Positions 395-40,417 of a DNA stretch of 60,519 bases are shown piece after piece. Location of the stretch: positions 1 through 60,519 of the forward strand of contig JAFUYM010000047.1 in assembly GCA_017470525.1 (NCBI GenBank). Reading direction: 5' to 3'. The notes under the pieces are model-generated. The model was not told the origin of the DNA and searched no databases. It saw only the letters and a list, made by a program, of their open reading frames with translations. Numbering within the stretch: position 1 is the stretch's first letter; every line of letters starts with the position of its first letter. Made by a program: the position numbers and the translations under genes. The stretch is from Bacteroidaceae bacterium (GTDB lineage Bacteria > Bacteroidota > Bacteroidia > Bacteroidales > Bacteroidaceae).

Positions 395-450
395 GCGCAC
401 TCAGCACCAAATGACAGGCGCTGAGTGCGCGTGTTATTTGGCGCTGGGTG
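395..450. repeat. three-arm palindrome, locus 1
   Basis: The left arm 395-405 (GCGCACTCAGC) pairs perfectly with 420-430 (11 bp). An overlapping, inward-shifted part of the same arm, 398-412, pairs with a second partner at 436-450 (13 of 15 Watson-Crick plus one G-T). The two pairings exclude each other, so the element could fold two ways. No T-run follows, so a simple Rho-independent terminator is unlikely. Confidence 0.7.
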
Positions 451-580
451 TTTGAAATCATATCGGCAGGGTGTGGAGGATGTATGGGTTTTCTGTTTGA
501 AGAAGTCAATCTATGCAAAAGGACGGTTGGGTTGGTTGGGATGAGGGTTCACCGCCCAATAATTCCGTTTCACCTATTTT

Positions 581-615
581 TTGCGTCTGTTTCACACGAA
601 AAGGGTGTACCTTTG
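581..615 (+). promoter_or_regulatory. Bacteroidetes-type promoter for the outer-membrane barrel gene
   Basis: The -7 box TACCTTTG is at 608-615 and a TTG of the -33 region is at 581-583, spaced 24 bases, slightly long. Transcription would start near 620, leaving a leader of about 25 bases before the ATG at 647. Confidence 0.65.
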
Positions 616-646
616 CGGTGAAATTGGATAAAAGAATAAAAGTAAA

Positions 647-38299: not shown

Positions 38300-38545
38300 T
38301 TAAGATTCGCCCAGCGCATAGGCTGGCTCACATACTACAGTGATTTCATCATTCTCAATCCTCACCACACCATTGCCACACTCCACCTTTTCCGTCTCTG
38401 TCTGGATGTAACCCTCCTTGATTTCTGCAATCATCGGTGCATGTCCAGGCAGAAACTCCATCATGCCATTTGCCGACGTGAACTGAAACCGTTCCACATC
38501 GCCATCGTGCTTGATGCCTGTTGGTGTAATGATTTGCAAATGCAT
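38300..38545 (-). CDS. atpC: ATP synthase epsilon subunit, short form
   Basis: An 81-residue protein comprising only the N-terminal beta-sandwich (MHLQIITPTGIKHDGDVERF ... GMMEFLPGHAPMIAEI). The helical C-terminal domain that inhibits ATP hydrolysis in other bacteria (total about 135 residues) is absent, so epsilon-type autoinhibition of that sort cannot occur. Short epsilon subunits are usual in Bacteroidetes. The gene lies 14 bp after atpD. Confidence 0.93.
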   Translation of the reverse strand: MHLQIITPTGIKHDGDVERFQFTSANGMMEFLPGHAPMIAEIKEGYIQTETEKVECGNGVVRIENDEITVVCEPAYALGES

Positions 38546-38559
38546 TGTCTGTACTATTT

Positions 38560-40062
38560 TTATCTCAATTGTTCTTTCAGTCTCTCAGCCTTCTCAAATG
38601 CTTCCTCAATGGTTCCTACATTCAAGAATGCCTGTTCAGGCAGTTCGTCACATTCCCCGTCCAGAATCATCTTGAAGCCCTTGATGGTGTCTTCGATGCT
38701 CACCATCACGCCCGGCACACCCGTAAATTGCTGTGCCACCGCAAAGGGCTGAGAGAGGAAACGCTGCACACGGCGGGCACGGTTCACTGTCGTCTTGTCC
38801 TCGTCGCTCAGTTCCTCCATGCCGAGAATCGAGATGATGTCCTGCAGCTCCTTGTTTCGTTGCAGAATCTGCTTCACGCGCTGTGCCGTCTGGTAGTGCT
38901 CCTCGCCCACCACATTCGGGTCGAGAATGCGAGACGTAGAGTCCAAGGGGTCCACCGCAGGATAGATGCCCAACTCCGCAATCTTACGGTTCAGCACCGT
39001 CGTGGCATCCAAGTGCGAGAAGGTCGTCGCAGGGGCAGGGTCGGTCAAGTCGTCGGCAGGCACATACACCGCCTGTACCGACGTGATGCTGCCGTTCTTT
39101 GTCGAGGTGATGCGCTCCTGCATCTGTCCCATCTCACTCGCCAGCGTCGGTTGATAACCCACGGCCGAAGGCATACGTCCTAACAAGGCAGACACTTCCG
39201 AACCCGCCTGAGTGAAACGGAAGATGTTGTCGATGAACAGCAGGATGTCGCCACCCTTTCTGCCGCCCACACCATCGCGGAACGACTCTGCAATCGTCAG
39301 TCCCGACAGTGCCACACTGGCACGGGCACCTGGTGGCTCGTTCATCTGACCGAACACCAGACTCACCTGGCTCTTCTTCAGTTCCTCCTTGTCGATGAGG
39401 CTCAAATCCCACTTCCCTTCCTCCATCGCCTCTTTGAACTTCTCTCCATAGCGGATGACACCGCTCTCAATCATCTCTCTCAACAGGTCATTGCCCTCAC
39501 GGGTACGTTCACCTACACCCGTGAACACCGAGAAACCGTTGTTCTTCTTCGCCACATTGTTAATCAGTTCCTGAATCAGCACCGTCTTGCCCACACCAGC
39601 ACCGCCAAAGAGACCAATCTTGCCGCCCTTCGCGTAAGGCTCAATCAGGTCTATCACCTTGATGCCCGTATAGAGCACCTCTTGGGCAGGAGAGAGTTCG
39701 TCAAACTTCGGAGCCTCGCGATGGATGGGCAAAGCCCCCTCTCGGCTCAGGTCTTCCATGCCGTCAATCGGGTCGCCGCTCACATTCATCAACCTGCCCT
39801 TCACCTGTTCGCCCGTCGGCATTGTGATGGGTCGTCCCAGTGCAGCCACTTCCATGCCCCTTCTGAGTCCGTCCGTGCTCTCCATCGCCACACACCTCAC
39901 CGTGTTCTCGCCCAGATGCTGCTGCACCTCCACCACCAGCCGTCTTCCGTTCTCACGCTCGATGGTCAGGGCATCGTGAATGCGCGGCAACCGTTCAGCC
40001 GAGAACTGTACATCGACCACAGGACCGATAATCTGCGATATTTTTCCTTTCAGTTTTTCCAT
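38560..40062 (-). CDS. atpD: F1 ATP synthase beta subunit
   Basis: A 500-residue catalytic subunit. Walker A is [15 protein letters not shown], Walker B is in [14 protein letters not shown], and the catalytic Glu lies in [13 protein letters not shown]. The signature [13 protein letters not shown] is complete. It is the first gene of the operon, with the order D-C-B-E-F-H-A-G that splits beta and epsilon from the rest and is typical of this phylum. A poor -7 match lies about 20 bases upstream. Confidence 0.98.
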
Positions 40063-40417
40063 CGTTCAATTGGTTTATGTTGCAAAATTGGTGAAAAAAA
40101 ATGACATGGAAAAGACTTTCATGTGAAAAAAACTGAAAAGAGGAATCCTGCAACATAAAAGTAGAGTTTTTAGGTTTTTAATGTGAGTTTGGTATAAGGT
40201 ATTCGCCTTTGGCAGACGAAAGAAAAACAGATAACATAGTCACTTTCGTTTGTTTAAATGAACATGTGGGAAACCTTGTGGTTGGTATAGCAGAAGATGG
40301 GGAAAAACGGACTGCTCCAGTCCGACGCATCGGACTGGAGCAGTGCGGCATGTCGGACTGGAGCAGTCCGATTCATAGGAGATGCATGCCTCCTGTTTCC
40401 TTTTTCAATCTTCCATT
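40063..40417. other. 355-bp intergenic region between atpD and the FAS1/SusCD operon end
   Basis: It has no gene. A weak -7-like CAATTTTG (minus strand, 40083-40090) may serve atpD, with a mismatch in the first base. The stretch 40110-40300 is A/T-rich without recognisable structure. The three-arm palindrome at 40308-40370 follows. Confidence 0.5.
40308..40370. repeat. three-arm palindrome, locus 5
   Basis: The left arm 40308-40326 pairs perfectly with 40352-40370 (19 bp). Its central part, 40311-40325, pairs alternatively with 40330-40344 (15 bp, four-base loop). The arm also has 6-bp self-complementary ends (CGGACT/AGTCCG). It sits 47 bp beyond the stop of the last SusD gene, and the atp operon starts on the other side. 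Confidence 0.85.

Follow-up and report, generated by a model that had tools for sequence, protein, structure and literature searches.

The four three-arm palindromes of the window (the whole 60,519 bp stretch of DNA analysed) probably belong to a superfamily of short, hairpin-forming repeats, modular, non-autonomous and MITE/REP-like, that are interspersed in the genomes of some gut Bacteroidales and specific to their lineage; the copies appear to have moved from site to site. The window is the entire contig 46 of an 83-contig draft genome (3.24 Mb, 83 % complete) of a Bacteroidaceae bacterium, and it contains no tRNA genes and no Rfam matches at gathering thresholds. Scans of the same genome covered 1,168,887 bp of the 3.24 Mb, in 61 stretches.

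The four loci and the 23-bp unit

A sequence-only reading had reported four places where one left arm is followed by two right arms complementary to it, and all four were confirmed where they had been reported. They also appear in the window's set of inverted repeats (395 as I15, 19468 as I7 and I12, 23695 as I3 and I11, and 40308 as I6, I10 and I14). The three arms are in fact three palindromic units, each made up of 7-bp arms and a 3-bp core, set at a pitch of 23 bp; the unit is a 17-bp palindrome, usually with CG...CG ends, plus a 6-bp spacer. The core of unit 1 is inverted relative to those of units 2 and 3, hence the appearance of one left and two right arms.

The GTACCC family element (23699–23761; units 23699–23715, 23722–23738 and 23745–23761) and the CGGACT family element (40308–40370; units 40308–40324, 40331–40347 and 40354–40370) both have the cores CTC, GAG and GAG, and for both loci the best self-similarity is at lag 23 (17/20). 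The first is flanked by the 3′ ends of two genes, one encoding a PLP enzyme of Cys/Met metabolism and the other PLP-dependent (TrpB-like), and the second sits 47 bp past the 3′ end of the gene at 40418–42109. In the CGAYRTC family element (19468–19542; units 19476–19492, 19499–19515 and 19521–19537) the step from unit 1 to unit 2 is 23 bp and that from unit 2 to unit 3 is 22 bp, and lag 22 scores best (17/20) with lag 23 second (15/20). Units 1 and 2 build a perfect 26-bp hairpin at 19468–19523. The GCGCWCTCAGCGC family element (391–454; left arm 391–408, right arms 417–434 and approximately 436–452) has an imperfect 23-bp lag, its best self-similarity again being at lag 23 (12/20).

When both strands of each locus were folded as RNA, the eight folds had z values of −5.3 to −10.3 relative to dinucleotide shuffles, and none of the 200 shuffles folded as well in any of the eight. 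One long hairpin is dominant in each fold; at 19468 the third unit forms a small hairpin of its own. This speaks against the bistable RNA ends that had been proposed, though at 395 the left arm pairs with the second right arm on the plus strand and with the first on the minus strand.

Other repeats and a rearrangement were seen in the window. Inverted repeats at 60290–60401 (46-nt arms at 89 %) and 15790–15855 (perfect 29-nt arms, 8-nt loop) are, by eye, outside the 23-bp class, and another short repeat at 40176–40234 has several matches in G026, G017 and other genomes. Compared with five relatives (G013, G061, G035, G014 and G063), the segment 40400–57450 is inverted relative to the neighbouring 38.3–40.1 kb; the 40308 element lies inside one breakpoint interval, and the other (57.45–57.99 kb) showed no trio.

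A scan for an exact 9-nt arm with two reverse complements (LRR), or for two arms with one (LLR), within 80 bp found 37 LRR and 28 LLR clusters in the 1,168,887 bp, and none of either kind in one dinucleotide-type shuffle. By a home-made gene call, 64 of the 65 clusters are intergenic, and 36 are near a match to a 23-pitch trio, the other 29 being different triplets. The scan recovered three of the four reported loci (at 19476, 23699 and 40311) and one further cluster at 34231; it missed 395, the arms of which are too imperfect.

The pitch itself stands out sharply. Direct repeats in this genome number 98 at lag 23, compared with 8 at lag 22 and 21 at lag 24; lag 21 is next highest with 41, and block-shuffled DNA gave 0. 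Rows of three 7-3-7 palindromes, with no similarity demanded between them, occur 32 times at pitch 23, any other pitch between 17 and 33 yielding 0–4, and shuffling leaves 0 at pitch 23. A blind trio scan in which arm similarity was scored gave 79 matches at pitch 23 and 0–9 at eleven other pitches, but not all of the 79 are of the hairpin class, as 23-bp minisatellites without palindromes pass the scans too. Between periods of 10 and 60, period 23 is also the commonest among TRF arrays, narrowly (54 of 364; period 10 has 53). The claim of a geometry shared by families with different arms holds, far above shuffled sequence and almost wholly in intergenic DNA. In one case, L098 1433–1564 (G020), two trios with different arms are consecutive and in phase at the 23-bp pitch.

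Four 23-bp minisatellites lacking clear palindromes were noted in this genome (L012 15823–15926, L014 248–475, L019 14043–14250 and L038 3640–3687). Those in L012, L019 and L038 have similar units, and one of the four adjoins a shell element (see below). There is also a small palindromic sister group of period 24 (L014 12862, L041 8306, L052 5465 and L061 4144), with units such as GTGTGAGTCACACCTATACCACAC.

Identity between half-sites is 0.87 within and 0.51 between elements, a difference partly built in by the scan. Covariation between families (0.587 versus 0.179 when shuffled) was dropped as proof of structure, since palindromy had been among the grounds for selecting the 31 sequences and the self-hairpin structure reaches much the same score (0.589).

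Families, flanking shells and range among genomes

The arms are indeed unrelated between the four loci, but the conclusion that no family is held together by sequence was wrong. All four are members of dispersed families, with 17 (395), 9 (19468), at least 40 (23695) and 37 (40308) places in this genome, the locus itself included; for these counts overlapping strands were merged by hand, and the 23695 count scored 40 of 50 candidates. Among 41 high-scoring elements the half-site consensus words were CGTACCC (13), CGGACTG (9) and a cluster around CGAYRTC. The best match to the 23695 element (92 %) is near a TrpB-like gene in G002, G003 and G063, where the flanks differ, and on this likeness the window element may be descended from the one found there.

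The core order CTC-x-GAG, with the middle exact, was found in 39 of 55 GTACCC copies and 14 of 17 CGGACT copies, some loci having been turned to the query orientation beforehand. The exceptions in these two families include GAG three times in four copies and CTC three times in 2 and 1. The middle unit can lie either way (22 LRR and 17 LLR for GTACCC, 6 and 8 for CGGACT). Since LRR becomes LLR when the opposite strand is read, the single arm on the left, which had been thought to hint at a strand-linked mechanism, is no rule; besides the 37 LRR and 28 LLR clusters above, stretches of this genome with the two best-defined families gave 8 of each, or 10 and 8 when the two window loci, both LRR and filed under other locus identifiers, are added. 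Relative to local GC skew, seven LRR copies were minus and one plus, and the LLR copies four and four, numbers too small to judge, and coding direction was about even with respect to LRR and LLR. A directional mechanism is not called for.

Outward from the units, the flanks of several families consist of ATTTAGAGGYTRTG or a sequence near it, often degraded. This shell of inverted repeats is common to families with different arms, including those of other species, and is missing or degraded around many GTACCC copies. In one subfamily it runs on to a terminal GAGGGTGTGTCAAAWTACAT, a 17-base form of which has 25 matches in this genome compared with 1 for the reversed control. Terminal inverted repeats, a trait of MITEs, were present in this one subfamily, represented by 10 distinct complete elements with both ends (six of 140–141 bp, one of 132 bp, one of 118 bp and two of 95 bp). 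The sizes 141/140, 118 and 95 bp correspond to three, two and one units, respectively.

Elements built alike, with different arms or a single unit, were found in other genomes (L288, L289 and L292), and an orthologous element in G003 and G002 differs by one 23-bp unit. Among 20 small stretches from relatives, each taken around a weaker match, a trio was the longest inverted repeat in 16; three (L319, L324 and L326) have one unit, and in L334 the longest is another hairpin.

GTACCC elements were detected in 15 of 61 genomes, namely 15 of 37 in the genus (this one included) and 0 of 24 from other families. The exact GTACCC pattern was found in 18 stretches from uncultured Bacteroidaceae, Prevotellaceae and Bacteroidales, several of them ruminant. 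A covariance model built from 31 chosen trios (E up to 0.001, both strands counted) matched 22 of 41 genus genomes; 17 had 38 to at least 126 matches, five had 1–7 and 19 had none. Thirteen of the 14 more complete genus genomes were matched, and completeness and clade may be tangled in this distribution. Stretches of five genus members without GTACCC elements (366 kb) yielded two palindrome trios, both registers of one array. Stretches of 16 genomes from other families (263 kb) yielded no palindrome trio at pitch 23, three at pitch 19 and one at pitch 20, along with six lag-23 direct repeats. L160, from another Bacteroidales family, has direct repeats of 23 bp resembling CTCACAATCTTGTCAATTTTTAT at 8231–8298 and 9643–9742. 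Carriage by phage was rejected, as the exact GTACCC pair pattern had no match among viral contigs.

Siting, mobility and alternative explanations

In a simple codon-usage gene call, 84 % of the stretches from this genome are coding. The 79 pitch-23 matches merge into 67 places, six of which, at stretch ends, are unclassifiable. Sixty of the 61 classed are intergenic (tandem gaps 38, convergent 12, divergent 10), and one is in a called gene. Position relative to gene ends, a point raised by the sequence-only reading, proved to be biased, with the element closer to the 3′ end of the upstream gene in 31 of the 38 tandem gaps. No recurrent neighbour gene was found among 19 gene families with three or more members (best p 0.023, uncorrected).

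Filled and empty forms of one site were found when L112 was compared with L063 of this genome, L074 of this genome with G002, and L240 in G014 with G063, G035 and the window (31799–31824). No clean target-site duplication was seen in these comparisons, diverged flanks obscuring the exact ends, and no shared direct flank was seen in the 10 complete shell copies. L106, L107 and L247 have an element in common at a single site, its units 1 and 3 showing a matched change; copies can thus persist across species, and movement may be rare. An autonomous parent carrying the shell end was looked for in 41 draft genomes using 20 bases of that end with up to two mismatches, and no facing pair at IS length was seen. 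Mobilisation by a RAYT (Y1) protein was also rejected. PF01797 was matched in 6 of the 17 genus genomes rich in elements and in 10 of the 19 free of them (drafts; Fisher p 0.34), the five intermediate genomes with few matches having been left out of the 41. No trio was present at 12 Y1 loci (best score 35) or within the 3.2-kb locus of the Y1-like protein (326 aa) of this genome.

The interspersed repeats are most simply pictured as an inverted-repeat shell around one to three 23-bp units, with the outer units, which mostly have opposite cores in the two families examined, pairing so that a single long hairpin forms, capped by the middle unit. Copies would be mobile but non-autonomous, an enzyme acting in trans to move them, and units would be gained or lost in 23-bp steps via recombination or slippage. 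The likeness of the arms inside an element suggests that its units descend from one another, and an influence on mRNA 3′ ends, if there is one, would be a by-product. Several observations weigh against this reading: neither transposition nor a clean target duplication, parent or recurrent neighbour has been seen, there is a pitch-24 sister group, non-palindromic 23-bp minisatellites pass the scans, and many GTACCC copies have a missing or degraded shell.

An alternative that we regard as improbable reverses the priority, with the elements being bidirectional terminators or mRNA-stabilising hairpins maintained by selection at RNA 3′ ends and dispersal being secondary. The bias to gene 3′ ends in tandem gaps and the great stability of the hairpins favour it, as do the 12 of 60 places in convergent gaps (11 % of gap positions) and bare hairpins of shell-end sequence found in G011 and G032. 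However, 10 of the 60 are in divergent gaps (24 % of gap positions) and the element is absent beside the orthologous genes of other species. Furthermore, in 38 elements with a score of 48 or more and CG-like ends, runs of four or more T were found on 9 of 36 transcribed sides and 10 of 40 other sides. This absence of bias speaks against a terminator role as a rule, and against the suggested attenuators, though some individual copies do have T5, among them 40308 on its minus strand.

Creation of the palindromes in place, replication template switching in hairpins copying and perfecting the arms site by site, had been the mechanism hinted at originally and seems quite unlikely. It would account for the long hairpins, for the matched unit 1 and unit 3 changes of the one ortholog set, and for two of the 10 complete shell elements, L264 (118 bp) and L274 (95 bp), whose unique flanks outside the shared ends are mutually inverted for 8 and 9 bp. 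But local creation would not give the same arms at up to 40 and more places per family, there is no orientation rule, and within families the arms of units 1 and 3 show no clear surplus of compensated changes. In GTACCC 13 cells were compensated (shuffle mean 7.8, maximum 14), in CGGACT 0 (1.8) and in CGACATC 1 (0.5), with 3 in the CGGACT cores (0.4, maximum 3); the sequences used were 51 of 55, 16 of 17 and 11 of 12, respectively. We give marginally less credence still to binding arrays, in which each trio would be three dimer sites about two helical turns apart for a putative DNA-binding or nucleoid protein. The 17-bp palindromes, the rigid pitch, the like half-sites of each element, the conserved CG ends and the core polarity would suit such sites, but the number of units in one shell varies from one to three, siting is biased to gene 3′ ends and there is no protein candidate.

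Relationship to known repeats

The closest known kinds are BrickBuilt, BOX and REPINs. The BrickBuilt MITE of Porphyromonas gingivalis, as described, has 23-nt direct-repeat units, 1 to about 23 per element, between an unlike leader and tail with IS5-like ends (GAGACC...), and occurs in approximately 19 copies per genome with no internal transposase (PMC4596501). The elements described here share with it the Bacteroidales host, the 23-nt unit in varying number, the flanking parts with inverted-repeat ends and the intergenic location (PMC4596501), the variation in unit number between flanking modules being seen in the 141, 118 and 95 bp forms. Compared by description, they differ in that the units are palindromic, mostly up to three, and the outer ones inverted, and in having an inverted-repeat shell, other ends and many coexisting arm families (PMC4596501); the order of the cores in most GTACCC and CGGACT copies is not that of direct repeats only. 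Pneumococcal BOX, as described, likewise has outer modules and a variable inner number and is hairpin-forming, dispersed and MITE-like, but it differs in size, sequence, pitch and the palindromic unit, boxB being described as a tandem module (PMC3049150). Like REPINs and REP/BIME sequences as described, the present repeats have inverted palindromes that form one long hairpin, fall into several sequence groups per genome and are dispersed and extragenic, but they have a middle unit, a 23-bp pitch and no Y1/RAYT association (PMC3116915, PMC3733652). The literature searched, mostly outside subscription journals, contained no description of palindromic 23-bp trios.

More speculatively, and in our view rather doubtfully, these could be a new class of hairpin element in which the shell is conserved and all six half-sites change together, the arms being recognition sequences for paralogous mobilising proteins other than RAYTs, with a spacing of 23 bp required by the machinery, perhaps in BrickBuilt too. 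If this were true, one genome could harbour many arm families side by side while the pitch stayed almost fixed at 23 bp.

One anatomy here combines features of REPINs, BOX and BrickBuilt, and the 23-bp pitch is a sharp constant common to families with unlike arms. Species loaded with the repeat and species free of it, within one genus, provide a natural experiment for finding the mover.
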